Origin: Acetobacter garciniae
GTDB taxonomy: Bacteria > Pseudomonadota > Alphaproteobacteria > Acetobacterales > Acetobacteraceae
DNA: 64,000 bases
Direction of reading: 5' to 3'
NCBI RefSeq assembly: GCF_017377735.1
Contig: NZ_JAFVMH010000011.1
Span: 1 to 64,000, forward strand
The notes below the pieces were generated by a model. The model saw only the letters and a program-made list of their open reading frames with translations, had not been told where the DNA came from and did no database searches. The position numbers and the translations under genes are program-made. Positions 34,791 through 44,906 of this stretch are shown here, piece after piece. How positions within the stretch are numbered: position 1 is the first letter of the stretch; each line of letters opens with the position of its first letter.

Positions 34791-36209
34791 TCAGGGAGAG
34801 CGGCGGGCAGACCTGCGCCCCCTGTAGCCCATGTTGCCCGCCATGATACAGCCAAAGGGGTCGATATAGTCCTCGATCTCGGCCAGGCCGTATTCCCCGA
34901 TCTGCTGCACCACCGTATCGGCCCTTTTGTAGCTTGAGGGCAGTTCCGAGATATCCACCTTGCCTCCGTAAAAACGGATATCCAGCCCCTGTGTCTCGGC
35001 CGTAAGCAGCGCTTCCGCCGTGATGGCTCCCATGCGGCGGCGGTGCTCGGTTCGCGTGAAGTTGCGACCCGCGCCGTGGGGCGCAAAGCCCAGCGCGTGG
35101 GGGGCGTCGTTTCCGCGTGCGATCAGGACCGGCTCGGCCATGTTCAGCGGAATGATCACCTTGCCACAGGCATCATCGGCATGCTTGCCCCAGGCGGGTG
35201 TCGCGCCCTTGCCATGGTAGAACAGGCCATCACGCTCGAACACGAAGTTATGTTCGTTCCAGAACCGCTCCACCACATTGGCCCGTACCGCCGTGCTGAT
35301 GGCGTGGTGCAGCGTGGCATGATTGTCCTTTGTCCACCGGTGCGTCAGTTGCAGAGCCTGCCAATAGGCACGACCATCCTCGCTATCGGCCGGTATCCAT
35401 GCATTCTGGGGCAGCGTGTCGGGCGAAAGCTGCTGTCTGTAGCGCTCCGCCACCTCCATGCCGGAGGTGTACAACCGTGCACCCGGCCCGCGTGACCCAT
35501 GATGCGTGACCATGACCGTATGCCCCGTACTGCGCGAACGCCCGACAAACAGGAAGTGATTACCATCCCCCTGGGTACCCATGTGGGTCCGGGCCGCGTC
35601 CAGGGTCTTTTCGCGCTTCAAGAACGGGTTGGCGCGGAATGCGTCCAGCAGATCGGGGTCCACCGCGAAGCGGTTGCCATCCTTGCGCCCACCGGGACCG
35701 AAATGCGTAATGGCCGAAGCCGCATCCAGCACCATCCTGGGCTCGGCATTACCAAGGTCGGTCATCATCACCGAGCAGCATATGTCGGCCGAATGCATGC
35801 CGGGATGAATGGCGTTGCGCGTCGCGACAATGCCGCCCACAGGAATGGTGCCCAGCGGTCCCGCCGGGCAGGCATCGGGCATGACGGCCCCGGCTTCCAC
35901 CGTAGGGGTGCGCAGCACTTCGCGCATCGTGGCCAGCACCTTGTTCATGTTGGTGGTTTCGTCCTCGTTTTCCGCACGAAGCGAGATATGCAGCGGCACC
36001 TCGCCTTCCGCACGCAAGGGCAGGAGCGACGGCGGGGGTGGCGACAGATCGGCCGCCAGCAGAGAGCGGATCTGGGCACTGTCCATTCCGTCTTTTTGCG
36101 CGGTACTGGCACGCGCCAACAAGGCGGCAAAGCCGGCACCGGGACGGTGGCCCCATGCAATCAGGTCATTTCCAGTTATGGGGGCTGGATGTTCATGGGT
36201 CATGGTCAT
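34791..36209 (-). CDS. rtcB: RNA-splicing ligase RtcB family
   Basis: A 472-residue GTP- and Mn-dependent ligase that joins 2',3'-cyclic phosphate (or 3'-phosphate) and 5'-OH RNA ends. Metal and guanylylation residues are visible: HPGMHSADICCSVM (Asp and Cys), GTQGDGNHFLFVG, THHGSRGPGARLY, and the histidine that becomes GMP-linked in APHGAGRNFTR. The N-terminus diverges from E. coli RtcB (it opens HPAPITGNDLIAWGHRPGAGF), typical of the RtcB paralogue that travels with Ro60. The start is ATG 36209, with AGAAGACG upstream. The leader between Ro60 and rtcB carries the Y-RNA-like units. No RtcA cyclase gene is present in the window. Confidence 0.93.
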   Translation of the reverse strand: MTMTHEHPAPITGNDLIAWGHRPGAGFAALLARASTAQKDGMDSAQIRSLLAADLSPPPPSLLPLRAEGEVPLHISLRAENEDETTNMNKVLATMREVLRTPTVEAGAVMPDACPAGPLGTIPVGGIVATRNAIHPGMHSADICCSVMMTDLGNAEPRMVLDAASAITHFGPGGRKDGNRFAVDPDLLDAFRANPFLKREKTLDAARTHMGTQGDGNHFLFVGRSRSTGHTVMVTHHGSRGPGARLYTSGMEVAERYRQQLSPDTLPQNAWIPADSEDGRAYWQALQLTHRWTKDNHATLHHAISTAVRANVVERFWNEHNFVFERDGLFYHGKGATPAWGKHADDACGKVIIPLNMAEPVLIARGNDAPHALGFAPHGAGRNFTRTEHRRRMGAITAEALLTAETQGLDIRFYGGKVDISELPSSYKRADTVVQQIGEYGLAEIEDYIDPFGCIMAGNMGYRGRRSARRSP

Positions 36210-36274
36210 TCACGTCTTCTTTCCAGGCCGCGCGTGCGCAGGCACCCGCGGTTATGTGCGCATGATCCCGGCAA

Positions 36275-36299
36275 CCGGCCCGTGGCTTACGCGGGCCGG
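36275..36299 (-). ncRNA. GC-rich hairpin between the Y-RNA-like array and rtcB
   Basis: The minus strand folds as CCGGCCCG-CGTAAGCCA-CGGGCCGG, an 8-bp perfect stem. Its first bases overlap the outer helix of unit 3, so the two folds compete. There is no U tract after it. It may be an RNA processing or stability element in the rtcB leader. Confidence 0.45.
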
Positions 36300-36376
36300 C
36301 CACACCATGGGGACAAGGGCTGTGATGGACTTGATGAATGTAGTCCGCCATGCATTTCCCCGGCGGTCGGGGTGGC
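36299..36376 (-). ncRNA. Y-RNA-like unit 3
   Basis: On the minus strand, GGGGA (36361-36357) pairs with UCCCC (36313-36309). The latter is preceded by CCUUG, the same 3' element as in units 1 and 2, and GGGGA is followed by AAUGC. Inside, GGACU pairs with AGUCC around the loop ACAUUCAUCA. An outer GCCAC/GUGGC helix can close the unit. It shares GACUACAUUC with unit 2. It has no tRNA-like part. Classification as a Y-RNA relative is inference from the shared ends and position. Confidence 0.5.
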
Positions 36377-36384
36377 TAAAAAGG

Positions 36385-36468
36385 CCCTGGCGACAAGGGG
36401 ATGGGGGGACATAAGGGCCCCATAGGGGCTGCCTTCACGAATGTAGTCCCCCCTTGCATTCGCCAGGG
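36385..36468 (-). ncRNA. Y-RNA-like unit 2
   Basis: On the minus strand the ends pair as CCCUGGCGA with UCGCCAGGG (9 bp). A three-base AUG bulge follows, then CAAGGGG with CCCCUUG (7 bp). Inner pairs GGAC/GUCC and an apical GCCCC-UAU-GGGGC hairpin complete it. A long end-to-end stem with a bulge and a CUUG-containing 3' strand is the layout of Ro-binding Y RNA stems. It lies 12 nt after unit 1 in the Ro60-rtcB gap. Confidence 0.6.
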
Positions 36469-36480
36469 GTTGGAAAATGG

Positions 36481-36574
36481 GGCCGGAGACAAGGATGGTG
36501 GGGAGCGGGATTTGAACCCGCGACAGGCGGTTGCCCGCTGCCTTTCCTGTAATCCCACCGGCATTCCCCGGGCC
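36481..36574 (-). ncRNA. YrlA-like Y RNA with tRNA-like module (unit 1)
   Basis: It begins four bases after the Ro60 stop on the minus strand. An outer stem GGCC-(C)-GGGGA pairs with UCUCC-GGCC, with one bulged C. It encloses a tRNA-like module at 36559-36496. That module has acceptor GGUGGG with CCCACC followed by A (so CCA is encoded), T-arm GCGGG-UUCAAAU-CCCGC, and one ACAGG...CCUGU arm with a GCGG-GCAA-CCGC tip in place of D and anticodon arms. There is no anticodon loop, so it is not a normal tRNA. This is the architecture described for YrlA RNAs, which tether Ro60 to nucleases and sit in rsr-yrl-rtcB loci. Confidence 0.75.
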
Positions 36575-36577
36575 TGT

Positions 36578-38134
36578 TCAAAGGGGCTGGGCCATGATCT
36601 GCCCGACCCAGTGTGTGGCCTCCATCCGGCCGGATGCGAATTCGGCCATCTGGTCGAAGGCCGCATCGGAAAAGCCGCCTATATTCAATACATCCTCCCG
36701 TTCGAGCACCTGTGCGGTGCCGTAAGGCTGGATATCGATGCATACGAGGCGCGCTTTCCGGTTACGGGCCTTCAGCTTTGTCCACTCCCGCAGCATGCCT
36801 GTGGGCGTCCCATCGGGCCGTTTATTGCCCCAGGACTGGTTATCCGACACGAACACCACAAGGTCCGGTGCTTCATGCCGGGCGTTGAGCCACGCCAAGG
36901 GGGCCGCGCAATCCGTGCCACCGCCGCCCAGTTCCGCAAGCCGGCGGGCATTGGTCAGGATCGTATCCCGCGGCTCCAGGGCGATGTCCCGCACCTGTTC
37001 CTCGAAGGGCAGGATACGTGCATCCGGGTTGCTGCGCTTGATCGCCGCAGCCACAAGAGCTGCAACATCAATGCACTGCACCGCCGTGGCGGCGCCGCTC
37101 CGGTACCCCGTAACCGGCGAACGCATGGAACTGGACACGTCGGGGCACACCACAACCTGCCCGGCAAACCGGGGCACGTTGGCGACCGCACGCTCCATGG
37201 CGTCATGCAAGGCCTCCCGCAGGGCAGGCGGCACCGCCTTGTTCAGGGCGCGCAGCGTGGCCAGCAACTGGTAGGGCAGGGCCTTGGCCGCCCTGATCCG
37301 TTCCGGGTCGCACAGCACACTCGCCACATGCGCTATGACCGCAGGGTCCGCAAAGGCGCCGTTGCGTGTCAGCATGTTCAGCCCCTGCCGCAGGGTCTGC
37401 CATGAAGCCGTGCGGGCGACAGCACCCCACTGCCCGGGCGTAAGCGGCAGGCTGCCCAGCAACTGGAACGGCACGGCGGGCACCTGTTCCGACACGCCAG
37501 AGCGGAAGGCCAGCAGGTCCTGCACGATGGGCGGCAGGGCCGACACATCGACAGGCCGGTCGATCAGCCACGCATAGAAGGCTTCGCGCTGCGGGTCAGC
37601 CGGACGTGGATGGACCATGCGAATGACATCGGCCAATGACGGTGCATTCCCTACCGACGCTGCCAGAAGCTGCCCGTCGGAGGCACCATTCAACCAGTCC
37701 CGCACCATGGCCTTGGGGCGTGAGCCCAGGGATTTACGCCCGGCCTGTCCAGACCGCATGATCTGCACAAAGGTGCGCAGCACCCGGCCCGATGTCACCA
37801 CCTTGGGGAACGCACGGGCAAACAGCACCGGATCTCGCCCGGACAGAACAGCCAGCAGCAAAGCAGGCGTATCCTTCATGTGCCCCTTGTCCCGCGCATG
37901 GATGGCAGTGCGGGCCAGGAAATCCGGGTTTACGGTGTTGGCCAGTTCGATCAGGGTTCGCGCCTGTGCCTGTGCGTCCTGGTAATAGCCACCGCCGAAA
38001 GTGCCTGTCATGGCAAGCTGGGCGAGCTTATGGGCCGGAGCGAGGTCATAGGCAGGAGCACCTGCCGCGTTACGGGTGTCGGCCTGCGGTGCGAACCGCC
38101 CCCGCAGCGACGCAAACACCGATCGGTTTGCCAT
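36578..38134 (-). CDS. rsr: Ro60/Rsr orthologue (TROVE-domain RNA-binding protein)
   Basis: A 518-residue ring-shaped RNA-binding protein that holds misfolded RNAs and Y RNAs. The TROVE HEAT-repeat ring spans residues ~10-360 (e.g. FLARTAIHARDKGHMKDTPALLL, a hallmark). The C-terminal von Willebrand A domain has an intact MIDAS: VVCPDVSSSM, with VFVSDNQSW later. The start is ATG 38134, with AAAGGAAAC eight to nine bases before it. A GTG eight codons upstream is possible but has no ribosome site. It is divergent from rtcR and co-directional with the Y-RNA units and rtcB, as in enterobacterial rsr-yrl-rtcBA loci. Confidence 0.93.
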   Translation of the reverse strand: MANRSVFASLRGRFAPQADTRNAAGAPAYDLAPAHKLAQLAMTGTFGGGYYQDAQAQARTLIELANTVNPDFLARTAIHARDKGHMKDTPALLLAVLSGRDPVLFARAFPKVVTSGRVLRTFVQIMRSGQAGRKSLGSRPKAMVRDWLNGASDGQLLAASVGNAPSLADVIRMVHPRPADPQREAFYAWLIDRPVDVSALPPIVQDLLAFRSGVSEQVPAVPFQLLGSLPLTPGQWGAVARTASWQTLRQGLNMLTRNGAFADPAVIAHVASVLCDPERIRAAKALPYQLLATLRALNKAVPPALREALHDAMERAVANVPRFAGQVVVCPDVSSSMRSPVTGYRSGAATAVQCIDVAALVAAAIKRSNPDARILPFEEQVRDIALEPRDTILTNARRLAELGGGGTDCAAPLAWLNARHEAPDLVVFVSDNQSWGNKRPDGTPTGMLREWTKLKARNRKARLVCIDIQPYGTAQVLEREDVLNIGGFSDAAFDQMAEFASGRMEATHWVGQIMAQPL

Positions 38135-38250
38135 GGCTTTGTTTCCTTTCTTCGTCACCCCTCTTTTTTGCTAGATGGAAGAGCGAAAAAAAAGAAAAAC
38201 GGCAAATCCCCATAACAGGTTGTTACTAAATGATATTATGAGATTTTCAG

Positions 38251-38310: not shown

Positions 38311-39885
38311 ATGCGTAATGTTGTCATCGGCTTTATCGGCACCGTTCTCGACCAGGGGCGTCGCCGCTCCTGGCGGCCCTCGGTGCAGATCTGTGCCAAC
38401 CCTGAATTCCCGGTCGATCGGCTGGAACTGCTCCATGACCACCGCAACCTGCGGCTGGCCGAGAAGGTGGCGCGTGATATCGTGGCCCTGTCGCCCCAGA
38501 CCGAGGTGCGGCTGGTGGATATGGAACTCGACAACCCGTGGGATTTTCAAGAGGTTTACGGAAAGCTGTACGATTTTGCGGAATCCTACGGCTTTGACGA
38601 AGATCGGGAACATTATTACGTCCACCTGACCACAGGCACCCATGTCGCCCAGATCTGCTGGTTCCTGCTGACGGAAAGCCGCCATATTCCCGCCTGCCTG
38701 CTCCAGAGCGGACCACCGCGCGGGAAGAGCAGCCCCAACAGCACAATCGACATCATCGACCTTGACCTGGCACGCTACAATGCGTTGCAACGCCGCTTCG
38801 AAGCGGCGGCACGTGAACATTCCTACATGCTGCGCGGCGGTATCCCGACCCGGAACGCGGCCTTTCACAGCATGATAGAGCGGCTGGAACAGGTCGTGAC
38901 CCGCTCGGATGAGCCAGTCCTGCTGGTGGGGGAGGCTGGTGTTGGCAAGACCACGCTTGCGCGCCGTATTCATGAACTCAAACTCCAGCGCCGTCGTATC
39001 AAGGGTCGTCTGGTCCAGGTGAACTGTGCCGGATTGCAGGGGCCGCAGGCCATGGCGGCCCTGTTTGGCCAGCGGCGCAACGTGGTGGGGCTTGCGGGCA
39101 CCGAGCGGTCCGGCTTCATCAGCGAGGCCGAAGGCGGCGTGCTGTTCCTCGATAACATCGACCTGCTGCCCCAGGCGGAACAGGGCCTGCTGCTCGATGC
39201 GCTGGAAAGCGGCAGTTACTACCCCGTGGGGTCGGATACCGCGCAGAGCTGCCGCTTTCACCTGATTGCCGCCACCAGCCGTGACCTGTCCGTGTTGGCG
39301 CAGCAGGGCATCATGCGCCCCGACCTGCTGGCGCGACTGGCCTTATGGGTTTTCCACCTTCCGCCATTGCGCAATCGGCGCGAGGATATGGAAGCCGAAC
39401 TGGCGTATGAACTGGAGGAAGCGGAACGGAGCCTGGGGTGCAAGATCGGCTTCAATGTGGATGCAAGGGCACGCTACCTGCATTTTGCCCGTGACCCGGC
39501 CATGGCCTGGACAGGTAATTACCGGGATCTGTCGGCCTCGGCCCGCAGGCTGTGCACCCTTGCCGAACGCGGGCGCATAACCCTGCCCATGGTGGAGGCG
39601 GAAATCACGACCCTGACCCGCCAATGGTCGGCAGTCCAGCGCGACGATGACCTTGCGCTGCTGGCTGAAATCCTGCCCGACCCGGCAGGCGTGGACGAGT
39701 TCGACCGGGCACAACTCGCAGCCGTGGTGCGGGCCTGTCGCGAAGCCTCGTCGCTTTCCGCGGCGGGGCGGCGGCTGTTCGCCGTATCCCGCCAAGGCAA
39801 GGCCAGCCAGAACGACGCGGACCGCCTGCGCAAATATCTTGCCCGTTTTGGCCTGAACTGGGAAATGCTCGCCAGCAGTGCCTGA
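38311..39885 (+). CDS. rtcR: RtcR-type transcriptional regulator with degenerate AAA+ motifs
   Basis: A 524-residue protein. The N-terminal CARF-like RtcR domain (MRNVVIGFIGTVLDQGR, YYVHLTTGTHVAQICWFLL) senses RNA fragments or cyclic-phosphate ends. The central AAA+ domain has Walker A GEAGVGKT at 207-214. Where sigma-54 activators have GAFTGA it reads NVVGLAG (257-263), and Walker B is LFLDN (278-282) instead of LFLDE. A C-terminal Fis-like helix-turn-helix (SLSAAGRRLFAVSRQGK) remains. It is divergent from Ro60. ATP hydrolysis and sigma-54 remodelling are doubtful, so it may act as a repressor or a sigma-70 regulator. Confidence 0.9.
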   Translation: MRNVVIGFIGTVLDQGRRRSWRPSVQICANPEFPVDRLELLHDHRNLRLAEKVARDIVALSPQTEVRLVDMELDNPWDFQEVYGKLYDFAESYGFDEDREHYYVHLTTGTHVAQICWFLLTESRHIPACLLQSGPPRGKSSPNSTIDIIDLDLARYNALQRRFEAAAREHSYMLRGGIPTRNAAFHSMIERLEQVVTRSDEPVLLVGEAGVGKTTLARRIHELKLQRRRIKGRLVQVNCAGLQGPQAMAALFGQRRNVVGLAGTERSGFISEAEGGVLFLDNIDLLPQAEQGLLLDALESGSYYPVGSDTAQSCRFHLIAATSRDLSVLAQQGIMRPDLLARLALWVFHLPPLRNRREDMEAELAYELEEAERSLGCKIGFNVDARARYLHFARDPAMAWTGNYRDLSASARRLCTLAERGRITLPMVEAEITTLTRQWSAVQRDDDLALLAEILPDPAGVDEFDRAQLAAVVRACREASSLSAAGRRLFAVSRQGKASQNDADRLRKYLARFGLNWEMLASSA

Positions 39886-43203: not shown

Positions 43204-44906
43204 CCCGTCTGACACGGCATGATTACGCTGGCCAGTTCGGCCCCACCACGGGGGATCGGGTGCGCCTGGCCGATACGAACCTGCTGGTGCAGGTGGAAAA
43301 GGACTTTACCACCTATGGCGAGGAAGTGCGTTTTGGCGGTGGCAAGACCATTCGCGATGGCATGGGGCAGTCCCAGGTCACGCGGGCGGAAGGGGCTGCG
43401 GATACCGTCATTACCAATGCGCTGATCATCGACCATTGGGGGATCGTCAAGGCGGATGTGGCCCTGCGCGATGGGCGGATCGCGGGAATAGGCAAGGCGG
43501 GCAATCCCGATATCCAGCCTGGCGTGGACATTATAATCGGACCGGGCACGGAAATTATCGCCGCCGAAGGCAAGATACTGACCGCTGGCGGCATTGACAG
43601 CCATATCCATTTCATCTGCCCCCAGCAGATAGAGGAAGCCCTGGCATCGGGCATCACCACCATGTTGGGCGGTGGCACGGGGCCTGCCACGGGCACCGCC
43701 GCCACCACCTGCACGCCCGGGCCGTGGCATCTGGCCCGCATGTTGCAGGCGGCGGATGCCTTCCCGGTCAACCTGGCTTTCGCGGGCAAAGGCAATGCGT
43801 CCCGCCCCGAAGGGCTGGAGGAAATGGTGCGCGCAGGCGCGTGCTGCCTGAAACTGCACGAGGACTGGGGCTCAACCCCTGCGGCCATCGACTGCTGCCT
43901 GGGCGTTGCCGACAGGATGGACGTGCAGGTCATGATCCATACCGACACGCTGAACGAAAGCGGGTTTGTGGAAGATACGATCGCGGCCTTCCGGGGGCGG
44001 ACCATCCATGCCTTTCATACGGAAGGGGCGGGCGGGGGACATGCGCCCGATATCATCCGCGTGGCGGGCCTGCCCAACGTGCTGCCATCTTCCACCAACC
44101 CCACGCGGCCCTTTACGCGCAATACGCTTGACGAGCATCTGGATATGCTCATGGTCTGCCATCACCTTGACCCAAGGGTGCCCGAGGATATCGCCTTTGC
44201 CGAAAGCCGTATCCGGCGGGAGACCATAGCGGCCGAGGATATTTTTCATGACATGGGCGTGCTGTCCATGATGTCTTCGGACAGCCAGGCCATGGGGCGG
44301 GTGGGCGAAGTGCCCCTGCGCACATGGCAGACGGCCCACAAGATGAAGCTCCAGCGCGGTGCATTGCCGGGGGACGGTGCTGCGGATAACAACCGCGTCA
44401 AGCGCTATATCGCGAAATATACCATCAACCCGGCCATAGCCCATGGTCTCTCGCACGAGGTCGGGTCCATCGCCGTGGGCAGGCTGGCCGATCTTGTTCT
44501 GTGGGACCCCGCCTTTTTTGGCGTCAAGCCCGATCTGGTCATCAAGGGTGGGGCCATCGCCTATGCCATGATGGGTGATCCCAATGCCTCCATCCCCACG
44601 CCGCAACCCGTACACGGGCGCATGATGTTCGGTGGCTACGGCGGGGCGTTGACGCATACGAGCCTGACATTCGTATCAAAGGCAGCGCTTGAGGACGATA
44701 TCGGCCGCAAGCTGGGCCTGCACAAACGTCTTTCCGCCGTGTCCGATACGCGTGGCGGCATTGGCAAGTCCAGCATGATCCACAACGACGCCATGCCGCA
44801 GATCGAGGTGGACCCCGAAACCTATGAAGTCCGCGCCGATGGCGTGCTGCTGACATGCGAACCCGCCGAGATCCTGCCCATGGCCCAAAGGTATTTCCTG
44901 TTCTGA
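43200..44906 (+). CDS. ureC: Urease subunit alpha (catalytic)
   Basis: A 568-residue amidohydrolase-fold enzyme that hydrolyses urea to ammonia and carbamate at a di-nickel centre. All ligands are present: His135 and His137 ([12 protein letters not shown]), the carbamylated Lys218 ([10 protein letters not shown]), His247 ([11 protein letters not shown]), His273 ([11 protein letters not shown]), and Asp361 ([10 protein letters not shown]). The active-site flap Cys320-His321 is in [10 protein letters not shown]. Full length and intact, so the enzyme should be functional when matured. Confidence 0.98.

Follow-up and report, generated by a model that had tools for sequence, protein, structure and literature searches.

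A Y-RNA array of three units between rsr and rtcB in Acetobacter garciniae, with a probable trimmed tRNA mimic as its first unit

The gap between the rsr and rtcB genes of Acetobacter garciniae holds a Y-RNA array, with three units on the minus strand. We consider it likely that three Y RNAs are encoded there, in the orientation of both genes, and that the first unit (U1) descended from a permuted tRNA mimic and was later shortened. The locus lies in a stretch of 64,000 nucleotides, hereafter the window. A previous sequence-only reading had described three Y-RNA-like units with pairing ends in the 368-bp gap, and this was borne out: a motif-plus-stem scan found three units in the sense direction, none in antisense, and 0.0 per shuffle (0.05 with an earlier version of the scan). 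To be counted, a unit needed a closing stem, GA(1–3)UG(C/U), either an inner NUACA-like motif or a T-arm, and a 3' YYGUY. Chance repeats were rejected on the antisense and shuffle results, and the positions that had been given for the 3' elements (plus-strand starts 36485, 36389, and 36309) were exact.

The source genome measures 3.8 Mb and shares its genus with Acetobacter papayae, in agreement with the earlier suggestion of a probable acetic acid bacterium. On the minus strand, rsr is followed by the gap (36210–36577) and rtcB, with rtcR divergent; the layout is that of an RtcR-controlled RNA repair operon. The names Ro60 and rtcB, assigned earlier to the flanking genes, are correct (Table 1). 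The rsr product matches Deinococcus radiodurans Rsr (2nvo) with an E value of 5.2e-22 (phmmer) and scores 83 bits with NCBIfam RNA-bind_Rsr, under the equivalog cut-off of 900 bits; the rtcR product scores 625 bits with RNA_repair_RtcR, slightly below the cut-off of 650. No match to PF01137 (rtcA) was found in the genome, which is 99.5% complete, while the same search was positive in 5 of 14 control genomes, including Escherichia coli. The best candidate sigma-54 site in the window has two mismatches, lacks the GG, and was equalled in 55 of 400 shuffles (20 regions pooled); upstream of rsr, the window holds no sigma-54 promoter beyond chance level. Elsewhere in the window, positions 43349–43638 (minus strand) match the 5' ureB sRNA (RF02514) with 109 bits, near apparent urease genes.

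The distribution of Ro60 is patchy. It is present in 2 of 49 genomes of the genus and in 10 of 397 genomes drawn from the family (the source genome counted; 3 of the 10 weak). A plasmid copy of the Ro60-rtcB gap was rejected, as the plasmid collection gave no match, and a search of viral contigs, able to reach close relatives only, returned no relative of the window's Ro60. Ro60 does occur in 349 phage records, all less than 60% identical to that of the window. Among these, Myxococcus phage Mx1 (OR576727.2) carries a Ro60 that is 42% identical, with a tRNA-Gly and a peptidyl-tRNA hydrolase gene nearby; model R1, described below, found no clear Y unit there (top match, 16.4 bits). Two "phage" records with a Ro60 fragment, OR845705.1 and OR851267.1, are only 1.7 and 2.2 kb long and are possibly mislabelled host sequence.

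Table 1. Features of the rsr-rtcB locus (positions in the window) and of other Ro60 loci (locus, or locus@position)
Feature	Position	Strand	Evidence
rtcB RNA ligase, 472 aa, frame intact	34791..36209	-	Pfam RtcB 5.4e-35
Y unit 3 (U3), short, hairpin-headed	36305..36363	-	Scan; upper stem pairs 6/7
U-run directly 3' of U2, terminator-like	36378..36382	-	At least 4 U within 12 nt of the stem also in 5/6 other Acetobacteraceae U2
Y unit 2 (U2), non-tRNA head, two stems nearest Rfam YrlA	36386..36467	-	Scan, fold, covariation
Y unit 1 (U1), Y RNA with apparently trimmed tRNA-derived head	36483..36571	-	Scan, alignment with A. papayae U1, fold z -2.35
U1 upper Y stem, 3' arm CCCACC	36497..36502	-	Coordinates
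U1 T-arm, 5 bp, 7-nt loop UUCAAAU	36505..36521	-	tmRNA T-arm match
U1 short hairpin GCGG-GCAA-CCGC at anticodon-arm position	36527..36538	-	Aligned with GCGG-GAAA-CCGC of A. papayae
U1 upper Y stem, 5' arm GGUGGGA (earlier "acceptor")	36553..36559	-	Pairs with 36497-36502
rsr, bacterial Ro60 (TROVE/vWA) protein, 526 aa, frame intact	36578..38158	-	Pfam vWA_Ro60 1.7e-16
rtcR, sigma-54 activator with RtcR (CARF) N-terminus, divergent	38311..39885	+	Pfam RtcR 3.4e-73
Heads with T-arm and second hairpin	L017@112, L019@393, L020@503, L023@576, L024@386, L027@649, L035@405, L041@794, L043@977		
Gaps with tRNA genes	L018, L019, L021-L024, L027, L032, L033, L035, L039, L041, L154, L155, L157, L161, L163, L166, L168, L170, L171, L173		ARAGORN

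U1 begins 6 nt past the rsr stop codon, and all three units share a common build: GGnGA(A)AUGC, a second, inner stem in which UACA comes directly after the terminal GA(C/U) of the 5' arm, then CUUGU and the closing 3' arm. In each unit the ends pair as a GGnGAAUGC/CUUGUCnCC stem; that of U3 has five contiguous pairs and continues past a 2-nt bulge. U2 folds better than all 200 of its shuffles and U1 better than 193 of 200. In the case of U3, 48 of 200 shuffles fold equally well, which is no better than chance, so its identity rests on motif and homology. Compensatory stem changes among relatives, the absence of which would have spoken against the earlier reading, do occur. Namely, in the U2 orthologs of seven Acetobacteraceae, 96.4% of cells are paired, and compensatory changes affect 5 of 16 pairs, with 8 doubly changed cells; no shuffle out of 500 reached 8 cells, and 6 of 500 reached 5 pairs. 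In the covariance search that had been proposed, with the Rfam YrlA model (RF02553), both stem motifs of the consensus recurred in U2, which scored 23.2 bits (E, 0.012), and in U1, at 17.2 bits (E, 0.63); these scores are far under the gathering score of 69 bits. We thus rejected U1 and U2 as canonical YrlA, and none of eight Acetobacteraceae genomes has a YrlA above the cut-off.

To place this array among others, we applied the scan to 50 Ro60 loci, which gave 180 units in sense, 0 in antisense, and 0.3 in shuffled sequence. The scanner was tuned over several versions while loci were being inspected, and both controls were run under the same rules. Before the set was fixed, we left out L009 to L012 (distant, weak, or partial Ro60; L009 had 0 units in earlier scans), L002, L003, L005, and L006 by hand (copies of L016, L013, and L015), and 14 further duplicates by shared 31-mers. 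Since near-relatives were kept (L024 and L032 share 43% of 31-mers, L019 and L035 share 38%, and L025, L028, and L029 about 15%), the counts are not independent events. The loci contain no unit (2 loci), one (5), two (6), three (10), four (10), five (11), six (4), or seven (2). With at least three units in 37 of 50 loci, a three-unit array is ordinary. Arrays of several units, few of them tRNA-like, are not uncommon; the earlier reading took a three-copy array with a tRNA module in one copy only to be undescribed. The available text of PMC9879122 already reports two Y RNAs in rsr-yrlB-yrlA-rtcB-rtcA. The scan makes no demand on the upper stem; this stem is fully paired (7/7) with the unit's own 3' tail in 152 of 174 units, versus 20% with the tails of other loci; at least six of the seven pairs form in 168 of 174, versus 60%. 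A UUUU lies within 12 nt of 20 of the 180 units, versus 3% of other spacer windows, and at this frequency U-runs were rejected as a general feature of the units.

The heads of these units are diverse. After four units were added by hand to the 180 scanned, the 184 comprised 64 anticodon-opened heads, 58 short hairpins, 31 heads with a T-arm only, 12 D-loop-opened heads, and 19 others. These counts are approximate, since the head parser made errors: the window's U1 came out as a hairpin, and five D-loop-open units were sorted into different classes. We set the class ranges ourselves, at tRNA positions 12–22 for D-loop-open and 23–46 for anticodon-open heads. Within the "T-arm only" group, one head recurs: besides its T-arm it has a second long hairpin, and no tRNA alignment extends past the T-arm (Table 1). 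In four Komagataeibacter loci (L004, L013, L014, and L015) there is a single Y unit without a T-arm or any tRNA-like part. It is an apparent fusion of U1 and U2, with a flank like U1 and a head like U2, which is what shortening of the array by recombination between repeats would give. At positions 201–1067 after Ro60, a planctomycete locus (L044) has weak Y-like matches instead of clear units, one of them resembling a tRNA, and ARAGORN calls five tRNAs there (Arg, His, Pro, Leu, and one undetermined).

We evaluated permutation by doubling each head and aligning it locally to 83 tRNAs from two genomes, with 10 shuffles for each head of at least 40 nt. According to this circular alignment, the Y stem enters at tRNA positions 14–20, in the D-loop, in 12 units and at positions 23–41, the Rfam YrlA arrangement, in 64. 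Five more units (L016@12, L018@528, L020@669, L039@345, and L163@729) have the D-loop-open order, for a total of 17. This order is D3', a short anticodon-arm hairpin, a variable part, the T-arm, a closed acceptor, and D5'. In alignment A3, made of eight class I units, GG...UAGAG stands before the T-arm and UAGCUYA after it, and the two are paired by RNAalifold, which pairs D3' with D5' in both D-loop-open alignments (eight class I and eight Leu-like units). Overall, 18 of 31 and 17 of 29 pairs in these two alignments, respectively, show double compensations. No D-stem pair is doubly changed within either alignment; compensation there occurs solely between subtypes, the 8 class I units having U-A at pair 12-23, the 8 Leu-like units G-C, and L033 C-G. 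An ACGC element is present at L161@854.

When the class I units were joined in tRNA order, ARAGORN called 4 of 8 as tRNAs, a count without a shuffled control. Three of them (L018, L019, and L161) allow a 7-nt anticodon loop to be drawn, in which position 33 is not U; the L161 fold closes this loop to a triloop. Folded alone, A. papayae U1 was equalled by 1 of 200 shuffles, L022 by 0, L018 by 8, and L161 by 17, the first two results being clear and the last two modest. The D-loop-open covariance model R1 gave at least 91 bits to 10 class I units in 9 of the 50 loci (8 training and 2 new, L173:190 and L171:2392), the next match scoring 66.5, and covariance model R2 gave at least 100 bits to 15 tRNA-Leu-like units (8 training and 7 new). 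Taken together, the strong matches number 25 units (16 training and 9 new) in 20 of 50 loci. Among 394 Rhodobacteraceae genomes, 23 of them with a Ro60 match, R2 exceeded 100 bits in 8, and in each of the 8 Ro60 is less than 1 kb away. R2 also gave four weak matches (1e-4 range), all in genomes where Ro60 had none. Applied to 395 genomes of the order, R1 had matches in 77 at E 0.001, mostly at 28–39 bits, and we suppose that many of them are ordinary tRNAs. Three Labrys units (L025:4943-5064, L028:5104-5225, and L029:5111-5232) score 60–67 bits with R1 and lack a UUCRA T-loop. A 2014 study by Chen is said to have found at least one tRNA-like Y RNA per species. A limited literature search, which did not cover the key Y-RNA papers, returned no D-loop-opened class; it is this topology of the intact relatives of U1, rather than the size of the array, that looks undescribed.

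One of these relatives is U1 of A. papayae (L016). Circular alignment gives it no gain over linear alignment (41 and 41); folded alone, it pairs GAGC (D3') with GCUU (D5'), and we placed it by its element order, its own fold, and its alignment with other D-loop-open units. The window's U1 is alignable with it from the closing stem through the T-arm but is 33 nt shorter (89 versus 122 nt), lacking the closed acceptor hairpin, the 5' half of the D-arm (D5'), and the linker. Its tRNA-derived part consists of the T-arm and part of the D-loop, with a D3'-like stretch kept. Without D5', U1 is at most a remnant of the D-loop-open class, and through the loss of the acceptor hairpin and D5' its T-arm is now joined to the 3' arm of the upper Y stem. 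Judged by sequence, U1 appears to be a trimmed form of a D-loop-opened tRNA-mimic Y RNA; our guess is that a deletion between short UCC repeats caused the shortening. The tRNA module that the earlier reading saw in U1 thus stands as regards the T-arm, with part of the D-loop, and falls as a plain mimic with acceptor and CCA. The supposed acceptor stem is the upper Y stem (GGUGGG/CCCACC), common to U2 and U3, and the supposed CCA is three internal bases and no tRNA 3' end. The anticodon arm, reported as absent, has its position occupied by a short hairpin.

Compared with the YrlA head, U1 has the T-arm but neither a closed acceptor nor a D-arm after the T-arm. With model R1 it scores 41.2 bits, versus at least 91 for members, while plain Komagataeibacter Y units score 35.0–44.2 and the best unrelated place in the order 39.2; moreover, the R1 alignment of the 3' end of U1 is wrong. 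As R1 does not separate U1 from plain Y units, its assignment rests on alignment and gene order shared with one close relative. The trimmed form is known from one genome, and selection on it therefore cannot be deduced.

Besides Y units, many of these gaps contain ordinary tRNA genes. ARAGORN called 33 in the gaps of 22 of the 50 loci (Table 1), 33/33 on the operon strand and 28 between Y units, against an expectation of about 0.4 for the 42 kb examined, based on one such genome with 42 tRNAs in 4.5 Mb. Their identities are Asn (11), Gln (9), Lys (6), Pro (6), and Gly (1). One call overlapping a Y unit was removed, the planctomycete locus without units was not counted, and for arrays where rtcB was not found, the end was set 150 nt beyond their last unit. 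Owing to the common ancestry of related loci, these genes are not independent events. Neither the window nor the other seven Acetobacteraceae loci have such a gene according to ARAGORN.

Several alternative scenarios may be considered for U1 and for the array. A perfect T-arm with a UUCAAAU loop and the internal letters ACCA might recall an ordinary or split tRNA gene, but neither ARAGORN nor Rfam calls a tRNA in the window, U1 has no D-stem and no 7-nt anticodon loop, and its "CCA" lies inside the Y unit. We rejected this scenario on the missing ARAGORN call and regard it as almost certainly wrong. It is also very improbable that U1 is merely a degraded canonical YrlA, entered at the anticodon arm, and that the D-loop-open class is an alignment artefact: GG...UAGAG and UAGCUYA flank the T-arm and pair in the class I units, R1 sets these units apart from the next match, and the Leu-like set repeats the element order with a different D-stem. 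This scenario would nonetheless fit the family signal found with Rfam YrlA (38.7 bits for A. papayae U1 and 17.2 for that of the window), the few strong class I matches, 8 of the 10 being training units, and the equal linear and circular scores of A. papayae U1.

The repeats could instead form a cis-acting attenuator or terminator array that controls rtcB, with U2 and its U-run as the terminator, rather than Y RNAs acting in trans. A U-run follows U2 in 6 of 7 Acetobacteraceae, and a terminator-like site is called there; however, terminator calls in the region are at the shuffle mean (2 versus 2.1), UUUU accompanies few units in the wider set, albeit more often than other spacer windows, and the tRNA-derived heads would be left unexplained. 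Overall, we find this improbable. More weight can be given to the idea that the trimmed U1 is a dying pseudogene in a lineage losing tRNA mimicry, as Komagataeibacter already has, although we think it rather unlikely. The four Komagataeibacter loci retain one unit without a T-arm, YrlA is over the cut-off in none of the eight Acetobacteraceae genomes, and the trimmed form was found in no second genome. Yet both stems of U1 and its T-arm are intact and paired, which neutral decay would not require. The most likely scenario remains an array of three Y RNAs whose first unit is a shortened descendant of a permuted mimic.

If this is the case, U1, U2, and U3 would each be cut from the rsr-rtcB operon transcript. 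By analogy with published Rsr-YrlA biology, Rsr would hold each unit through the common two-stem base (GGnGAAUGC...CUUGUCnCC), leaving the variable head free as the effector part. In the literature, as far as the available texts go, Rsr is tethered through the Y stem, PNPase is bound by the tRNA-like domain, which also undergoes modification by tRNA enzymes, and cleaved tRNAs switch on RtcR (PMC8394870, PMC7790460); the domain has further been proposed as a possible competitive inhibitor of a tRNA nuclease (PMC7790460). The ancestor of U1 would have been a permuted tRNA mimic with the Y stem entering at the D-loop. The trimmed U1 may still be recognized as a T-arm minihelix by enzymes that need only the T-arm (TruB/TrmA type), and may no longer be recognized as a whole tRNA elbow. 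The plain heads of U2 and U3 might gate or occupy Rsr without imitating tRNA.

More broadly, and only tentatively, alphaproteobacterial rsr-rtcB gaps could be viewed as an RNA-made kit against tRNA damage. Up to seven Y RNAs would be encoded there. Many of their heads would be tRNA bodies opened at the anticodon arm or the D-loop and would imitate more than one tRNA: class I tRNAs, and class II tRNA-Leu, which has a long variable arm. Their acceptor would be closed, and their anticodon loop absent, shorter, or without U33; real tRNA genes lie on the same strand in 22 of the 50 loci. By means of the mimics, Rsr might draw in different tRNA-handling enzymes or nucleases, the tRNA genes might replace cleaved tRNAs, RtcB might reseal the rest, and the window would be a kit being stripped down. 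The tRNA genes within arrays suggest that some RNA repair operons also supply replacement tRNAs. From A. papayae, with a whole mimic, through A. garciniae, without the acceptor hairpin and D5', to Komagataeibacter, with no tRNA part, there is a series in which the need for the mimic can be tested within a single family of harmless bacteria.

With regard to known systems, the locus shares with the RtcR-type operon of Salmonella the order rsr, Y RNAs, and rtcB in line with a divergent rtcR, as published in PMC9879122 as far as its available text shows. It differs in that the A. garciniae genome has no rtcA match and no recognizable sigma-54 site. In the accessible portion of PMC7790460, the Salmonella operon was induced less strongly when rtcA was deleted in a truA background, and a ruvA background showed no such effect. 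U2 and U3 would fit the role of YrlB, which the available text of PMC9879122 gives as a second Y RNA beside YrlA in rsr-yrlBA-rtcBA operons, except that A. garciniae has two plain units and the likeness is one of operon position. YrlA (Rfam RF02553; PDB 6CU1) is a bacterial Y RNA with a tRNA-like domain, and its circular permutation relative to tRNA has been published, according to the part of PMC11472068 that was accessible. The A. garciniae locus has in common with YrlA the gene neighborhood (rsr, rtcB, and rtcR), the two-stem base with GGCGAAUGC and CUUGUCGCC, and a head carrying a T-arm. In the Rfam consensus, the Y stem of YrlA enters the tRNA body at the anticodon arm, and the head consists, in order, of the T-arm, a closed acceptor hairpin, and the D-arm; the intact relatives of U1 are entered at the D-loop instead, and the U1 of the window further lacks the closed acceptor and D5'. 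YrlA is thus a known tRNA mimic by circular permutation in which the Y stem replaces the anticodon arm. Opening at the D-loop, with the anticodon-arm side kept, is a second solution. Set side by side, the two topologies make a natural pair with which to ask what part of the tRNA surface is presented by Rsr RNPs and which enzyme it is presented to.
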